A stretch of 64,000 nt of DNA, taken from positions 868,001-932,000 of the forward strand of contig NW_024881586.1 of assembly GCF_019059575.1 (NCBI RefSeq). Reading direction: 5' to 3'. The translations under genes were made by a program, and so were the position numbers. The first letter of the stretch is position 1. Every line of letters begins with the position of its first letter. The notes beneath the pieces were generated by a model. The model ran no database searches. It had not been told where the DNA came from and saw only the letters and a program-made list of their open reading frames with translations. Shown in pieces: positions 18,897-62,181 of the stretch. The DNA comes from Amphibalanus amphitrite (taxonomy: Eukaryota; Arthropoda; Thecostraca; Balanomorpha; Balanidae).

Positions 18897-35709
<16,813 letters not shown>

Positions 35710-43200: not shown

Positions 43201-44381
43201 TTAGCCCGCGCCCCACTGGGGGGGGCTATTTATAGCCCCCCCTCCCGTTTTTCTGCAATAACTTCCAAACCGCTTGACGGATCGATGCCAAACTTTCAGG
43301 ACCTTCGGCTGCATCTATTTGACACCTTGTGTCAAAATTTGAATTTCGTAGCTACCATAGGTCGGCTGGAAATGACGTCAGAGTGACGTCATGTTCGTCC
43401 GATTTCGACGCAAAACATTGAACCACGGCAATCGCTCCCAAGAGCTCAGTTTTTAAGCTAGATCCAATTTCTTTGTATGAAAGGACTCAGAATTGACTGC
43501 GCTATCAAACTGCTATCTCGGATTTCCAAAATTTTGAAAATTTCGAAAATTTTATATAATAATATTCAAAATTTATATTTTTATATTTTTTCAAAAAGTT
43601 TTTGACTTTTCGAAAAAACCGGAATATATGTGACAGAACGCATGATGTTGACTAACTCTAGCAAGTCTTAGCTAAATATCTTCAAAAATGGCCAAGTTAT
43701 ACGCATTATTGCAAAAAATTCACAATTATTAATTTTTCAAATCAATTTTTCAGTACGTATTTGACATCGTACACCAATATAAATGGCACCATCGTGTTCC
43801 TGAGCTCAAACTGCATCCATTAGGCACCTTTTTTGTTGAAAAATGTCAACTTCAAAATTTGACCTTTTTTGACCTGAAAGTGACCTGACCTAAGCGAAAT
43901 TCGACTCCAAATGACCTCGAATGACACAGACGACATCAAATTCGAAATCTATGGCCTAAATGGACCATAAAACATGTGTCACGTGACCGACGCATGATAT
44001 AATATTTTCGTGACCTGTGATGACCTGACCCTGACCTGAAAATCAAAGTACAAGTTTGGTACCCTCAAAGTATCTAGAGCACCTCTTCACGAGTGTGGAA
44101 ACCAAAAATGAGCCTGATCTGACTTGTAAGACGGCGGCCAGAGCCCAAAATGTGAACAATCCAAAATGCTAATAATTTTTACTTTGACCTGACCTGTGAC
44201 GTCATCGGTGACCTCGAGGTCAATGAAATTAGGTTTCGCTCGACAGTTTTTCCGGGGCTATCAGACGCCGTTTGAATTTTGACGATCGGCCCAGTAGTTT
44301 CGGAGTTAGGAGGGGGGGCTATGAATAGCCCCCCCCCCAGTAGGGCGTGTTATACACAGACCCCAGTGGGGCGCGGGTTAG
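43201..44381. mobile_element. TTAA-type MITE with TTAG flanks
   Basis: TTAG CCCGCGCCCCACTGGGG at the left, and its complement followed by TTAG at 44378-44381. Each end has a G-run/CTATTTATAG or CTATGAATAG/C-run hairpin. The interior contains TGACCT arrays (43880-44040) and a CCGGAATATATGTGACAG block shared with the elements at 2392 and 57436. It lies about 430 bp upstream of the secreted gene's putative promoter. Confidence 0.82.
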
Positions 44382-53349: not shown

Positions 53350-56300
53350 CTGTGGAGAGGTGAATCGGTCAGAGGGTTTGGTGCAACACGTATGATCAGT
53401 AGGGACAATTGGAGACGGAAATGGTTGCGATCTGGTGAATAATAGGAAGCCAGGAATAAGCATTACGGAAATCTATTACGCGGAAACAAATAGAACCATG
53501 ACCATTAATTTTTCGGACTCAAACTTCCGTGAAAACTCTAGCTCAATAGTCGAAGCGCCCGTGCTTTGTCTTCTTACGGCATTCATAATAAAACATATTT
53601 TGTACAAGACGACTGAAATTAAACACAATCTCTCAAGAACCCGGGCTTCACGTTGCCCTCCCAGCTACCAAGTCCTTCCCCAATCAGCTGCAGCCAGCCG
53701 AAGCGGCCCACCTACCGAGAGGTGCTCCTGGATGTCCTTCCTGTCGTAGGTGATGCCTGACGGTGTGATGACCGGGTCCCGCAGAATCTCGAAACTGATC
53801 TTACCGCACAGATAGTCGGGTACGTCTCGCTTCTGTCCGAACACAAAGACAGTCCACTATTAAATGTACAGAACGACTGTGAGTCGCACAGCACACACGC
53901 ACTGCGATATATCGGTAGGGTTACGTTTTTCCGTTATACATGACAGGAGACAAGGATGTTGGCTGGTTTCGATTCGGTTCATCACACCATAAAAGTATTT
54001 TTGTACTTATCGTAACACATGTTTGACGACATAAACATTTGTCAGTTTATCATCTTCGTTCGTTTTATCTCGTGCTGACTTATTCATACCTATGCAGTGT
54101 CCAATAGTACAACTATCATCTCTCTTCCTCGGAATTCCCTGCCACCATTCCATAACTGTCCTCCCTCCCTCCCTCTCCCACCGTCCTGTGACCTCCATCC
54201 ACCCCCCCCCTCTCTACTCACCCGTCGGTTATCGTCCACTTTAGCGAAGAGCTGGTTGAGCTGGGCGATGCGTTCGTCACAGCGCTCCTCGATCTGCCTG
54301 ACGCGGGACTCCACCTCACTGTCAGCACTGTCTCCGGCCGCCGCGTGCTGAGAGAGGAGGGTGTCCACCTGACGATCCTTGTCCTCGATCAACAGCCGGT
54401 TCAGGTGACTCTGAAATAGAGAAGGGCTAGTTAGGACTGGGTTAGGGCAGATCCATTGGGCATCCAAAGAGGCAATTAGGGCTGGGTTAACACAGAAACA
54501 GTGCAGAGTCAAAGAGGCAGTTAGAGTCGGGTTTATATAGAGCCAGTGGGCAGTCAAGATGCGGGCCAAGCTGTTGATGTGGGTTAGAACCTAGAGAAGC
54601 TGGTTACGGTGTCAGCACGTACACCGGGTTACGGCGCTGATATGCTTGGACGATAACGCTACAATGCCATAGCGATAACGCTAGAGTAGTTAGACGGGCT
54701 TGAAGCGCATGACAAGAGACATTTGATAAGCAAGACCACCAAACATTCGTCATCGGCCTAGAACATGCAAAAGATTAGATAACACCCTACGGCATCCGTA
54801 AATAACACCGCTGGCATTGATAGCTTTGCATATTGATAGATAACGAATTGACGCACTTGCAAATTCACAATGGCAGCGGTATCAGGGGAGAATGCGGGAC
54901 ACTACTCTCTACAACAATGCAATCGCGCAAAGGATGGACTAGATACGTGTATTTTCAGTGAGCCCGGTAGATCGCCGCCCAATCGATTCCTCCCCTCCCC
55001 AACTGTCCAAGCTCGGGTGATGGCAAGTCTCCAGTCTCGGCAGAACGTGACCTACTGCCCGGCACGGTCTGCCCATTAACTGTACTGCCCTGTTTTCAGG
55101 CGTCTATCGATTGGTACGGCCAGAGAGCTGCAAGCTTCAAACCACAGCAGGTTCGACGAGAAGCATACGAGAACGAGGTTGTCTGCGCAATAATTTACCG
55201 ATATGATATCGCATCTTGATTGTAGCCTTATACGAGATTCTCCTAGTGGTATTATGTTCTCCTAAAATACATTTCTTCTGAACTTTCTCCAATCCTCCCT
55301 ACACGGGAAGCGATTATGGTTCGACCCAACAGATGCGAAATGTGAACAAGCTACCGAACACGGACGTAATAAATTGTGCTGTTATCAGGGTTGTGCTCGA
55401 CTCAACAAAATTTGCTGACTCGACTCATCATTCAAGTTCAGAGAGCCCTGACTCAACTCTGACTCAAACAAGGAGCTGATTTTTTCCATTGACTCGACTC
55501 ATGACTCAAGCGGCTCAATGAAAATATGAGTTGACTCAAACTTGACTCAAATTTTTTGTTGAGTCAAGTGAGTTGACTCAAAATTGACTCAGATAAAAAA
55601 GTTGTTGAGCGGGGGGGGGGGGGGCAGGTGAAAAAAAAATCCGGCAGCAGGGTCAGGGCTAAGTTGTTAAGCGGGTGGTATAGGGTAGTGTGGGGTAATT
55701 TGAACATATTTTTACGTCTTCTCCGTTCTACCAAATTCCAGTTCAACCCTGGATGAAGAAAAACTGCTTCAGTAGCGCAAGTGTCACTTGCTTTCACCAT
55801 GCAAGCCTCATTTTTGGACGAGCCGAGCATACCTTGAATAGCATAGCCTCACTTATCCACCAAGTCACGGTGTGTTCAAATTGCCCCACCGTGGGGTAAT
55901 TTGAACATACTGCCTTTACCTGTCATAAAAACGATAGTCTCGCCAGCACCGATGTTGTTTGACCCATAAACAAATAGGCAGAACAATTCTAAACATACCT
56001 TCACTTGAAAAATCAACACAACAGCAAAAATAACAGTTGCAGAGTATCAATATCTGCACGCTGCACACCGGTCAGTTGACAGAATTCGCCCCTCTTCAAT
56101 TAACAGAACGTCTATCATTTTTGTTCGATAAAAACTCTCCCAACCGTACTACATCTGTTAAAGTGGTGCCAATCGAAACCTGGACATTTGGAGTTCTGAT
56201 TTTGTCCAATGTCCAATTCGGAATTGGTTGGACAAAGGTAGCAGCCTGGACAACATTGGACGATGGCTTGCTACACTTCAGCGCTTTTTATAAAGTAATC

Positions 56301-59300
56301 GTGCATAGCATTGATTGGCGAATGGAAAGCTTGTTAAGCTCTCAATATAATGAACACTTTTCGGCTGGTAAAATTACATGATGGCAATATAAATGACGGT
56401 TTTGAGTGTTGATATATATAGTCTGTTTTTTTAGCAGCTGCCGGTCGTTTAAAGCGCCTGTCTGATAAGTGCGCGAGGAGCGAAAGCAAAAATGCTATGG
56501 AAATCCTGCAAATCCTGAAACTTTGCACATCCGTAACTTTTCTTCGACATGAACTAAAAAGAAGGAAAAGATGTCTTTTTCGAAGCTAAAATGTTCCCCA
56601 ATCGATCGCCAGACCAAGGAGGTGATTTTCAATGTTTTTGAATTTTGTTCAAAAGAGAAAAGTAACATGGCCTTAACAGGAGAACCATGCGGTTCATATT
56701 GTTTGGTTCACCCAAATAAAGTGTATGAGAGAGTGAATCTGATGACTGGTGTTTCCGAGCGGACAGTTCGCAACATCATGAAAGAAAAGGAAGTCGGCGA
56801 GTTCAAGTCTCCTATGAAGTCAGCCCCACGGACGGGAGTCGTTCAGAAAATCGACGATTTCGACGTGTGTGCCATAAAACGAGCCATACACAGCATGTAC
56901 GAAAAGGGTGAGCGAGTTACCCTAAACTCGATCCTGATGAAGGTGACAAGTGAGCTGGACTTAACCTTCAGTCGCAGCTCCCTGCGCAAGATCCTCCTCC
57001 AGAACGGCTTCCGCTACAGGAAGGTAAACTACAGGAAGCTGCTGATGGAGCGCCCGTACGTGCGGGCTGCAAGAGCCCGCTACCTCAGAGAAATGCGCAG
57101 GATCCGCAATACTGAGCCCGACCGAGCAGTCATCTATCTCGATGAAACGTGGTTCAGTCAGTTTGATTTTGATCAAAAAGGCTGGCTGGATGATCGCGAG
57201 TTTTGTGGCAGAAGAAGTGTTGTTGGCAAAGGCAAGCGTCTGATCATTGTCCATGCTGGATCCAGAGATGGATTTGTCGGTGATGCCTTGCTTACCACCT
57301 GGACCGACGGCAAGAGCACCGACTACCACGACTCGATGAATGCGCAACATTTCGAGGAATGGTTCTCCAGCCTACTCCAGAACATCCCGGCTAACAGCGT
57401 TATCGTCATGGACAACGCCAGCTACCACAGCCGGATTAACCCGCGCGGGGCTGGGGTCTCCAGCCGAACGCGCGGGGCTGGGGGGGGGGGGGTAAATTTT
57501 ACCCCCCCCTGTTATCTCCCGAACTAATGGTCCGATTTGGAAAATTCAAACGCCAATCGAAAGCTCTCATCACGAACTACTAAAAACATGTACTTAATTT
57601 AAAGTTTGAGGTCAAGGTCAAGGTCAGGTCAAGGGTACAAATTGCAAGTTTCTACAGTATCGGCCTTGCACCGTAGTTGCCGAAGAATGGAGTCATGGAC
57701 TGAGACTGATCGCCCAAAACGTGTTCTTAGGCTACCAAGACAATATTCGTTGCATACAATATCATTCAGAGGTCAAGGTCAAGGTCAGGTCAGGTCAGGT
57801 CAGGTCACCAAAAAACAAAATATAGAAAAGGGCATGTGCGACACATGTTTTATGGGTCATTTTACTCATAGAATTCAATAGGCACACTCAATAAGTGATA
57901 TGGACCACCTCTGGATGAATTTCAGGTCGAGGTCAGGTCAAGGTCAGGTCAAGTGAGGTCAAATTTTGAAGTTGGTTGTTAAGGCCTAAAAAGGTGTCTA
58001 TCTGATGCAGTTTTTCACGGCGAATCGAATGGTGCTATTTTTGTTTCCGTACGAGGTCTAGAACTTCCAAAAAAGTCATTTTTCCAAATTTTTGTGTGTC
58101 GTGACGTCATAAAATTTTGAATAACTCCCACATTTTTGAACCGATTCTTCTAAAATTTGGTATGTAGGTGCACATAGACCACTTCTCTGACATATATTCC
58201 GGTTTTTTTCGATAGACTCAAAATGTTGGATTTTATAATGATTTTCCCGAAAAAATCAGTTTTTTGAAAAAAATTAGCCCAAAATCCAAAATTTTCAAAA
58301 AACCGAGATAGCCATTTGATAGACAAAGTAAAATTACGTATAACCTTTTTTGTTACGTCTTGATTCCTTTAAAAATGAAGATGTTAGCGGCGTTTGAACT
58401 TTTGCCGTTTTTGAGGCGAAAATGGCGAACATGACGTCACTAAAACGTCAATTTCTCAAAAATTTTCCGACGGATTTCGCTCAAATTTTCAGGGAACGTG
58501 TCAAATTGATGTAAGAAAAGGTACTGAAAGTTTGGCGGCGCTGCGCGCCGCCGTTTTTGAGATATCGCAAAAATTCGCGAGGGGGGGTAAAATTTACCCC
58601 CCCCCAGCCCCGCGCGGGTTAAAAACAAGACCCCGACGACCAGTAACAAGAAAGGGGAGATCCAGGCATGGCTGGAAGAAAATGGCATTTCATATGCCGA
58701 CGACATGCTCAAAGTGGAGCTTCTGGAGCTGGTTCACAAGCACGCTCCCCCAAAAACGTACTATGTGGATGAACTGGCAAAAGAAAAAGGACACACAGTG
58801 GTCAGGCTGGCACCCTACAGTTGCGACCTGAACCCGATCGAAATGATATGGGCTCAACTGAAAACGTATGTGAGACAACGCAACAGAAGCGGAAGCATGG
58901 GAGCCATCAAGCTGCTTGTGGAAGAGGCGGTGGCCCACATCCCACCCTCGGCATGGGCTAAGTGCTGCGATCACGTGGAAGTGCTCGAAGAGCGCTACTG
59001 GCAGCACGAGAACGTGGCCGAAGAGGTGGAGCGCGTCGTCGTTACCCTGGGAAGCAGTGATAGTGAAGACGAAGACACAGAAGACGAGTAGAAGACGAGA
59101 GGAGCTGTGCTGGGCTGACTCGCTATACGGTGATGACTGATGATGATCGCATGATTATGATTTGCGATTATGCACGAGGCAGGCGTGAACAGCTGGATGC
59201 AGACTGCACTGGGATGACCTTCAGAATATATGGTTTACTTTTTGCTCTTTCGTTTGACCTTTGATTTGACAAAATTTGACCTTTGATGACCTCTGGTGAC

Positions 59301-62181
59301 CTGACCTTTGACCTGACCTAAAAATGACTGATGTGTTTTCTTCATTATTTCTTTTGCTCTTTCGAATAACGCTTACTGCGAGTCGCTACTTGGCCCAGGA
59401 GCTGATTTAGACGGGGGTGGGTTCAGACACCCCCGGCCCGGCGCGGAAGTCGCCGAGTACCGGCCCGGCGCTGTTTAAAATACAAACGACGCCCGGACAT
59501 TTGAGCACTTTTGCATTTCATATAGGTATGATGCAATCTACATATAAAGAACAGTGATAAGGCGGTATACACAAGCTGGTTTCATTCCTAAATTATTCAC
59601 TTTCTCAATCTCCTGCCTCCTGCTATCGCTGGCACCATGGCACGACTTTTGTACCATCTTCGCTGACACAAAGAGGCCACCTGGCCAGGGAACGTTGCCC
59701 TCCTCTCAACCCCTCTCTCCTCTTTTTATTATAGTGTACAAACTGATAGCGCAAGAACGGTGATGACAATTCTCAAGAAGGGTTGTGACGCGTAAAAGAC
59801 AAATCCGCAGCTTATTCCACCAGCCTAAGTGAAAGTCAGCACAATTCTGAATGCTGGAGCCTGAGTGTGCAGAACATGGCAAGTTCAGTACGACAGCTGG
59901 ATCGACACGGATCGATACTGGATTGATACGCTCCATTCGAGCCGCCATAAAAGGAGCCGATAGAAAGTGTCTCGTATTTCTGTTTTCGCAGTCTCAAAAG
60001 CACGCGCAGTTGCAATTTAGGCACTTAAAACGACCGGCAGCTGCTAAAAAAACAGACGCATAATTTTCGGACATATTTGGACAAATAGTTGACTTTAACA
60101 TTTTTGGACGGAAAATCAACAAAAATGCCGGACATTAGACGGATATTAGAAGTAAATTTTCTAAAACTGGCATCACTTATCTGCTACTGCCTTGGGTCGA
60201 AAATATTGGCAAAAAAAAAAAAACTGGGAGCGTTGTTTTTTTCGGAGCTATTCCTGTCTTCATTGAAATTCTCACACTATGTTCAAATTACCCCACGCTA
60301 AAAGTTATTTTGCCATTTTAAAAAACAGGGTTAAAAAGCAAATTTCTTGGATTGAAGGCACTGATTAGGTCATTATACAACAAAAGCCGTTGCGTATTAG
60401 GCGCAAGCAATGCAAGATTTTGCGCTGCAATGAAGTTGCAATGACGTGTTGATAGGCGTTTTTCCTTGCGAAATTGATTTTTTACACTGTGCGTCAACAT
60501 CTTCATTCCCTGAAACTGTAAACCCCGTTCATATGATAGCCCTTTTAATTGCGATAATTTCTCTCATTGGTCTTATTTTCATGCCACTTATGGATTTTCT
60601 GTTATTTTCTGTTATTCACACTATGTTCAAATCGCCCCACATGTTCAAATTACCCCACCCTACCCTATATATTGTTTCTGGAAAGTTGAGACAGCTGACT
60701 CATGTCCCTAAATGTTTGACTCAACTCAATGTCAAAAATTATTTTACTGACTCAACTCTGACTCAACTCAACACTTAAATATTTTTGTCCGATTCAACTC
60801 TGACTCAACTCAACAGCTCAACATTTTATCCGACTCGACTCAAATCTGACTCATTTGAGTCAGAGTTGAGTCAAATTTCTGACTCGACTAATGAGTCAAG
60901 CACAACCCTGGCTGTTATTAAATCATTTTTCTCAGAAAGACGTTATTAATGGTAGCCTCATATAAAGGTCTATTGGAACAAAAATACAAGCATGCATTTC
61001 ATCTTAGGCTTCGTCCAATTAACAATCCCATCGTGCCACACGTTCAAAATAGGTTTACGATAATTCGTCAGCGTAAGCCACAATCGGTATTAGGAGGGCA
61101 GCACCAGCCATTAATGCACTCGTTTCCGACTGTATCCGCTGTACCCACCTGCAGTTCGATCTCCTCCGTTATCCGTCGCTCCTCCTGCGTGCTCCAGCGC
61201 TTCTTCCGTACCAGTCGCAGCTGGCCAGCGATGTCGTCCCCGAAATACTGCATCTGCTCCCGCGCCAGGTCGTGGGCTGATGACAGCGGGTCAGGGTGGG
61301 TCACAGCACGAACGATGGATTTTGGCTGACATAGACATTGTAATTGGTCCCCGGCACAGGACCTACCAGATGATAGGATAATCATGAATAGCCACTATGG
61401 AACAAATATCGTAAAACTTGTGATACACGATTTATAAGCCAGTAACACAAAACTCCCGTTACTTATTTAAGCCAGCACAGGCACTGTCACTAGCCGGCAG
61501 GCACTGTCTCCGCCAACACTGTTGTCTCGTGGCAGCTCCGCCCCTCCAGCGACCCCTCTCCCCAGTCATTCTCCCCAGAGCACCAGCCACCCGTGCCACA
61601 CGCCAACCAACCTCTCTGCAAATGTTTGATGGACTCGTCGTACAAGTTCAGCTCGAACAGTGCCTGTCCCAGGAAGAAGTGGCCCTTGACATTGCTGGGG
61701 TCCATCGAAGGGTCAAGAGCGCGTCGGCAGTCGGCGCACGCGAGCTCCCACTTCTGTAGCTTCAGGTAGCACAGCGCACGGTTCGTGAAGTAGTGCGGCA
61801 CATTGGGGTTCTTGATCTGGGAATACGAGACAGAGGGCACGAGACAGTGGTAAGATTGTGCTGAAATGTAATAGGTACCAGTTACAGCTGGCAGATTCGT
61901 CATTTGTTCATAGAATGTTGCTTAATGTTTATACTACGCTATTATTTACTTTTCTATCAGTTGGCAGTTGCGTGATCATTTAATAGTGATGCTATTCTTA
62001 TTATTACAATATGGGTTTATTTATACAATTAAATACTTACAATTGCTTTACTGTAGCATGCCACAGCATCATTGAACATCCTTGAAGCAAACAGTGCATT
62101 GCCCATTTCTTTGAGCTGCTGGGCATTCATCTTGGACTCATCTCCAGGCATGGGCTTCTTGGCTGACTTGGGTCTCTCCAT
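53224..62181 (-). CDS. STUB1: STUB1/CHIP co-chaperone ubiquitin ligase, six coding exons joined
   Basis: Joined exons are 62181-62041, 61816-61612, 61276-61149, 54410-54222, 53832-53716 and 53349-53224: 906 bp, 301 aa (human 303). CHIP binds the C-terminal EEVD of Hsc70/Hsp90 with its TPR domain and ubiquitinates bound clients with its U-box, in the cytosol. TPR residues about 18-120: the carboxylate-clamp residues are all present (K24, N28, N59, K66, K91). A helical, coiled-coil dimerisation region spans about 116-221, with FGDDI and RKKRW conserved. The U-box (about 222-297) reads [34 protein letters not shown] and [12 protein letters not shown]. Every splice junction is GT-AG and in phase. 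Intron 3 (54411-61148) holds a three-level transposon nest. The sequence suggests a fully functional gene. Confidence 0.97.
53716..53832 (-). CDS. STUB1: STUB1 exon 5 (U-box, first half)
   Basis: 39 codons from acceptor GGACAG to donor GTAGGT, phase 0. It encodes [17 protein letters not shown] and [16 protein letters not shown]. Confidence 0.96.
54222..54410 (-). CDS. STUB1: STUB1 exon 4 (coiled coil)
   Basis: 63 codons from acceptor ATTTCAG to donor GTGAGT, phase 0. A charged helical stretch from [16 protein letters not shown] to [13 protein letters not shown], matching the helical hairpin region of CHIP. Confidence 0.93.
54411..55385. other. STUB1 intron 3, part before the nest
   Basis: Unique-looking intronic sequence with a few short GGGTTA repeats near 54425-54540. 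It ends with the GCTGTTAT octamer (55378-55385), the left target duplication of the hAT element. Confidence 0.5.
56571..59091 (+). pseudogene. Tc1/mariner transposase split by a TTAA MITE
   Basis: The first part (56571 to about 57437) has a helix-turn-helix ([14 protein letters not shown], 59-72), a second DNA-binding segment, and catalytic D191 (YLDETWF) and D281 (VMDNASYHS). The second part (from 58623) contains [12 protein letters not shown] with the catalytic Glu and ends in an acidic tail at 59091. Removing the MITE with one TTAA restores an open frame with no other stop or shift. D281 to the Glu is then 82 residues, against 34-37 in Tc1 and mariner, and matches the DD82E (Sailor) group. 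It is inactive only because of the insertion, so the insertion is young relative to decay. Confidence 0.9.
57436..58622. mobile_element. TTAA MITE inserted in the transposase gene
   Basis: TTAA at 57436-57439 and 58619-58622. Terminal repeat CCCGCGCGGGGCTGGGG, and again, just inside, CGCGCGGGGCTGGGG before the G-run/TAAATTTTA/C-run hairpin. A matching hairpin is at the right end. AGGTCA arrays lie at 57608-57632, 57770-57807 and 57925-57962. Length 1,187 bp. The interrupted coding sequence proves the boundaries and the TTAA duplication. Confidence 0.95.
59235..59480. repeat. Fragment of a TTAA MITE right end
   Basis: Aligns with 24005-24200: TGACCTCTGGTGACCTGACC, CTCTTTCGAA, CTACTTGGCCCAGGAGC, then a hairpin GGGGGTGGGTTCAGACACCCC. 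It has no terminal TTAA and is older than the insertion in the transposase. Confidence 0.7.
61149..61276 (-). CDS. STUB1: STUB1 exon 3
   Basis: 128 bp from acceptor TCATCAG to donor GTGGGT, phase 1 to 0. It encodes [16 protein letters not shown] and [17 protein letters not shown]. Confidence 0.95.
61612..61816 (-). CDS. STUB1: STUB1 exon 2 (TPR)
   Basis: 205 bp from acceptor TCCCAG to donor GTTGGT, phase 0 to 1. It encodes [20 protein letters not shown] and the third TPR up to SIKHLQR. Confidence 0.95.
62041..62181 (-). CDS. STUB1: STUB1 exon 1
   Basis: 47 codons from ATG to ATT before donor GTAAGT, phase 0. It encodes the first TPR helix pair with [29 protein letters not shown] acceptor-like site lies about 25 bp before the ATG, so a noncoding leader exon is possible. 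Confidence 0.95.

Follow-up and report, generated by a model that had tools for sequence, protein, structure and literature searches.

Four kinds of DNA transposon bear on the locus described here. Non-autonomous elements of the hAT type make an 8-bp target duplication and have CAGGG-type ends, and TA-targeting MITEs of the Tc1/mariner kind combine a TA duplication and inverted ends with high copy number. piggyBac-like elements duplicate TTAA and have ends starting with CCC, while Kolobok-type elements likewise use TTAA. The fourth kind, Sailor (DD82E), has been described within the IS630-Tc1-mariner group (Shi et al., 2021; PMC8533490), and the parts of that report drawn on here give a spacing range of DD78E to DD111E, ends that start with GT or CC, and lengths of 1.8-4.4 kb in arthropods. 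Where one element interrupts another, the interrupting element orders their activity; this is the principle of transposition-in-transposition dating, which, in the sections of the two reports consulted, has treated many nests or retroposons (PMC3014933, PMC5657132).

Nested transposons as such are common, and the case presented here is ordinary transposon biology, as all four of its layers are new members of already known kinds of element. What the nest does provide is a strict relative order of insertion among four families of DNA transposon in one genome. We consider it very probable (about 0.92) that it arose by four successive cut-and-paste insertions of DNA transposons, each step presumably mediated by a transposase.

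Four nested elements in intron 3 of STUB1

The gene around the nest is STUB1 (CHIP), as the peptides of the flanking exons match solved CHIP structures (226 bits). Its intron 3, placed by this exon peptide match and by GT..AG ends, runs on the - strand from 54411 to 61148 of the window (the whole stretch of 64,000 nucleotides analysed), and its 6,738 bp agree with the intron of about 6.7 kb given in an earlier note on this DNA. Both splice ends are intact, and the nest occupies ~82% of the intron. From the outside in, the layers are a hAT-type MITE, a TA-flanked MITE of ~1.34 kb, a Sailor-type transposon with a transposase, and a TTAA element of 1,179 bp. Which element interrupts which can be read directly, as can the target duplications of layers 1, 2 and 4. 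The nested order in the earlier note (hAT, TA layer, transposase element, TTAA element) is backed by paralogous empty sites, but its count of three levels becomes four, since the TA-flanked MITE and the Sailor-type element (56421-60057) had been merged. An inverted-repeat listing of the region contains one more pair (56421-56475 and 60003-60057, 84% complementary) which encloses the transposase frame and falls between the TA and TTAA boundaries, pointing to an additional layer. All searches for further copies were run on the same genome assembly (807.5 Mb in 2,644 contigs), and the recurrence of identical boundaries and duplications in independent copies places the nest boundaries beyond chance.

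The outer shell, layer 1, lies at 55386-55682, a part whose last two bases are the TA that layer 2 targeted, and at 60666-60910 (both + strand). As previously noted, it is bounded by an 8-bp duplication around 55386-60910, and GCTGTTAT reads identically at 55378-55385 and 60911-60918; just inside this pair the shell ends in CAGGGTTGTGCTCGACTCA-type inverted repeats. There are at least 40 copies (the best 40 of 698 candidates all match, the window included), the others at 93-96%. The 8-bp target duplication of a hAT element is present in the window and in nine of the ten other copies with both ends found, among 11 other loci examined; the flanks differ in L022, and L018 yielded no pair. At the site of layer 2, one shell (L053) is empty and reads GTTAAGCGGGGGAAATATATATTGTTTCT without layer 2, and 9 of the 11 other shells have a longer ATGAAAAGCTT-type stretch, so that the form of the window's shell at this site is rare.

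Layer 2, at 55683-60665 with its inserts, has GGGTAGTGTGGGG ends and lies within the TA pair already noted (55681-55682 and 60666-60667). Its left part runs from 55683 to 56414, the point up to which other copies match, and its right part from 60058 to 60665, both on the + strand. At least 40 copies exist of the left half (best 40 of 1,536 candidates, all matching, the others at 98-99%) and of the right half (best 40 of 1,238, all matching, the others at 95-97%). The TA duplication of a Tc1/mariner-type MITE is seen in the window and in 12/12 other copies with both ends (13 loci; the right end of L032 was not found), and the Sailor site is read through, empty, in all 13. The terminal motif GTGGGGTAATTTGAACAT recurs internally in partly palindromic form at 55870-55912, 60275-60297 and 60619-60658, and these repeats may perhaps be repeated transposase-binding sites.

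Layer 3 occupies 56421-60057 on the + strand (3,637 bp with its insert), and its transposase frame is in two + strand pieces: 288 codons at 56571-57434 and, at 58621-59091, the remainder with its stop codon (KNKTPTT...EDE). Together the pieces reach Pfam DDE_3 barely over the cut-off (29.8 vs 28.6 bits). Four uninterrupted copies (L037, L038, L039, L041), 2,452-2,456 bp long with GTCTG ends, have an intact 445-aa frame with spacings of 89 residues from D to D and 81 from D to E. All 27 candidates from the genome search were scored, giving 28 matches that are not a lower bound, and six of these, the window included, cover the whole left Sailor segment at ~100%. TATA flanks both sides in 7/7 other copies with both ends found, among 12 other loci compared, with one extra A beside the left TATA in L040; the flanks of L041 and L044 are set out one base off register. 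The loci lacking both ends (L042, L045, L046, L047, L048) are diverged, are fragments, or run beyond the fetched stretch; L048 has TATA on its single end, and L046 and L047 share flanks, with TTTA on theirs. Two more loci, L049 and L050, were fetched and lie outside the 12-locus comparison. The TATA duplication, GT ends, length, and D-D-E triad with its long second spacer suggest that layer 3 is Sailor-type, in the IS630-Tc1-mariner group, and DD81E by our own count, although the window's own copy is without the second TATA. In single-protein scans of viral and prokaryote contigs, no relative of the transposase was confirmed. The fetched stretches of nine other loci (L037-L045) contain no layer-2 sequence beside Sailor, and nothing there thus suggests that layers 2 and 3 travelled together.

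The Sailor family also carries, as a fixed segment at 59272-59478, a truncated end from another TTAA-type element, which resembles L006:2680-2891 (84%) and 24014-24178 of the window (82%). A separate fifth insertion here was rejected because the segment is present, and identical, in 6/6 near-identical Sailor copies (L037-L041, L043), making it older than their spread. Further insertions break other copies: L040 and L043 contain TG..CA elements, LTR-like by their ends alone, with 5-bp duplications (CCCGA and GAGCG, respectively), and L044 is broken by a TTAA-flanked element and a hAT-like element.

The innermost layer, at 57440-58618 (+ strand; inverted ends CCCGCGCGGGGCTGGGG), sits in the transposase frame between TTAA at 57436-57439 and at 58619-58622, just as had been noted. 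Its copy number is a lower bound, the best 40 of 2,640 candidates having been scored. TTAA flanks both ends of 9/9 other copies, giving the TTAA duplication of a piggyBac-like element at 10/10 loci with the window. In 8/9 Sailor loci an exact probe finds the TTAA site uninterrupted; at L045, the remaining locus, the alignments meet end to end. L040 carries a different insertion 14 bases past this site. Elsewhere in the window, the stretch 43201-44381 is related to the TTAA element (64% across 871 aligned positions) and is flanked on both sides by TTAG, not TTAA.

The history proposed for this arrangement runs as follows. A hAT-type MITE would have inserted in STUB1 intron 3, duplicating GCTGTTAT, and a TA-targeting MITE of a high-copy family would then have landed inside its shell. 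Next, a Sailor-type transposon, itself encoding a transposase, would have entered the middle of the layer-2 MITE, where other members of that family read GATA-GCT-GCATAA, and finally the TTAA element would have entered the TTAA at transposase codons 289-290, splitting the frame after the second D and before the E.

The Sailor junction and rival readings

Three points speak against the four-insertion account: the odd Sailor junction, the rare form of the shell at the layer-2 site, and the rise in divergence at the innermost step. The junction also qualifies the statement in the earlier note that every target duplication is intact, which stands for layers 1, 2 and 4 and fails for the window's Sailor, whose left flank is TATA and whose right flank is GCAT. 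The other layer-2 loci all read GATA-GCT-GCATAA (13/13, with AATA in L029), and the window reads GATA-TATATA, then Sailor, then GCATAA. The TATATA (56415-56420), of which the last four bases are the left TATA, is absent from the other layer-2 copies examined, so that by comparison with the empty sites the left junction has gained six bases, and the right one lacks GCT and a second TATA. Either no second TATA was ever made, or it disappeared along with a few target bases. Something other than a plain insertion followed by a small loss could be responsible, either a repair insertion with TATATA as filler and a deletion of target, or recombination between two copies; we regard this as unlikely. 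In its favor, the TATATA goes beyond the family sequence of layer 2 on the left, both TATA and GCT are gone on the right, and when the genome was searched by pattern for a layer-2 copy having the TA run but no insert, just two hits came up, neither of which looks like layer 2. The right half of the window's layer 2 is also more diverged than the left (14/607 vs 4/732), but the same bias is found among other layer-2 copies (pairwise means of 0.9% left and 2.6% right), and a derivation of the two halves from different copies is therefore not supported. Nor is a chimera needed, as both outer duplications, the 8-bp one and TA, are intact around the odd junction.

That the nest was created by an erroneous joining of unrelated repeat copies during assembly might be entertained on the grounds that every layer is a repeat family and that the odd junction adjoins a short TA run, but a misjoin would not be expected to leave matching 8-bp, TA and TTAA pairs bracketing the blocks, and we judge such an artefact exceedingly improbable. 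The left intron flank, used as a query for a second allele in the assembly, matched only itself, and this single match also argues against a misjoin. The reading in which the TA-flanked layer and the transposase form one Tc1/mariner-type element is next to incredible. It is true that layer 2 and Sailor each place inverted repeats on either side of the transposase, and subterminal repeats can occur within an element; however, all 13 layer-2 loci examined are without the 56421-60057 block, and each of the seven Sailor copies with both ends is flanked by TATA of its own, with no adjoining layer-2 sequence in the fetched stretches. It was rejected because independent copies of layer 2 and of Sailor exist separately. 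Four successive insertions remain our preferred reading.

Divergence and the order of insertion

Measured against consensus, substitutions number 21/532 (3.95%) in the hAT shell, 18/1339 (1.34%) in layer 2, 3/2449 (0.12%) in Sailor and 11/1179 (0.93%) in the TTAA element. The samples comprised 11 (left) and 8 (right) of 11 hAT loci, 12 of the 13 layer-2 loci fetched (L032, whose right end was not found, was dropped), 5 (left) and 6 (right) of nine Sailor loci tried, and 9 TTAA copies; the fetched loci are those that resemble the window best, a choice that makes the divergence come out lower. It had been proposed as a check that divergence should decrease inward, and it does so from hAT to layer 2 (p = 0.0009) and from layer 2 to Sailor (p = 3e-6), but rises from Sailor to the TTAA element (p = 0.0005), an outcome that the earlier note had listed as refuting. 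Restricting the count to changes private among the sampled copies gives 3/2449 for Sailor and 6/1179 for the TTAA element (p = 0.066 for the rise), and p = 0.061 for the drop between hAT and layer 2. For the TTAA element, a "private" change is one confined to a single copy of the ten compared. When the genome was searched with a pattern covering three of its six private changes, 38 near matches were returned, each with 2 mismatches, and in these similarity-selected matches one of the three changes is present in 37, one in 2 and one in none. At least two of the six are hence not private genome-wide, and part of the TTAA excess is variation of a sublineage. CpG decay was considered as a source of the higher divergence of the TTAA element; none of the 10 differences in the CpG listing (11 by the leave-one-out consensus) is at a CpG site.

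The simplest account would be that the TTAA copy already carried differences on landing. As distance from a consensus includes variation inherited from the source lineage, the inner rise leaves the insertion order standing: it is interruption that sets the order, consensus divergence is a poor clock, and the proposed divergence test is unreliable here. The nest is in this respect a worked case in which consensus divergence does not yield insertion order.

AGGTCA arrays and comparison with known elements

Another observation relates to the hexamer AGGTCA, the nuclear-receptor half-site. Counted on either strand, it ranks second among the hexamers of the window, with 173 occurrences where ~30 are expected (the maximum of 50 draws was 45), and it holds the same rank in 38.4 kb of sequence flanking 24 other loci (87 vs 17). 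The TTAA element contains 16 copies at 57609-57961, all on the + strand and many overlapping at a 5-base period. It is conceivable, though very unlikely, that TTAA-type elements spread directional AGGTCA arrays and that the nest put 16 possible hormone-response sites into the STUB1 intron; receptor binding by these arrays, and any effect on expression, is conjecture from sequence. Our literature search for a link between AGGTCA and TTAA elements found none among the papers listed; primate Alu offers a precedent, as far as the portion of that paper drawn on here goes (PMC1785376). The AGGTCA-bearing TTAA elements and the young Sailor-type family are most worth following. The latter is very young, with seven near-identical copies in our alignments, the window included, and the four others that keep the 445-aa frame intact would be candidates for a transposition assay.

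Compared with known systems, layer 1 has in common with hAT-type non-autonomous elements the 8-bp duplication and CAGGG-type ends, by which it is called hAT-type, although it carries no transposase. Layer 2 shares the TA duplication, inverted ends and high copy number of TA-targeting Tc1/mariner-kind MITEs, but its GGGTAGTGTGGGG ends were matched to no named family here and ~1.34 kb is long for a MITE. Layer 4 resembles piggyBac-like elements in its TTAA duplication and CCC-start ends, yet it has no coding capacity that would tie it to piggyBac, and TTAA also fits Kolobok-type elements. The other copies of layer 3 share the TATA duplication and GT start of Sailor as set out in the parts of the published description used here (PMC8533490), and both the element and its transposase are within the arthropod length ranges given there; the D-E spacing of 81 lies within DD78E-DD111E, yet is not the 82 of DD82E, and the window's copy, unlike published Sailor, is without its right TATA. 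Ordering by interruption is what this nest has in common with transposition-in-transposition dating as outlined in the excerpts drawn on (PMC3014933, PMC5657132), the difference being that many nests or retroposons were treated there and a single nest of DNA transposons here.
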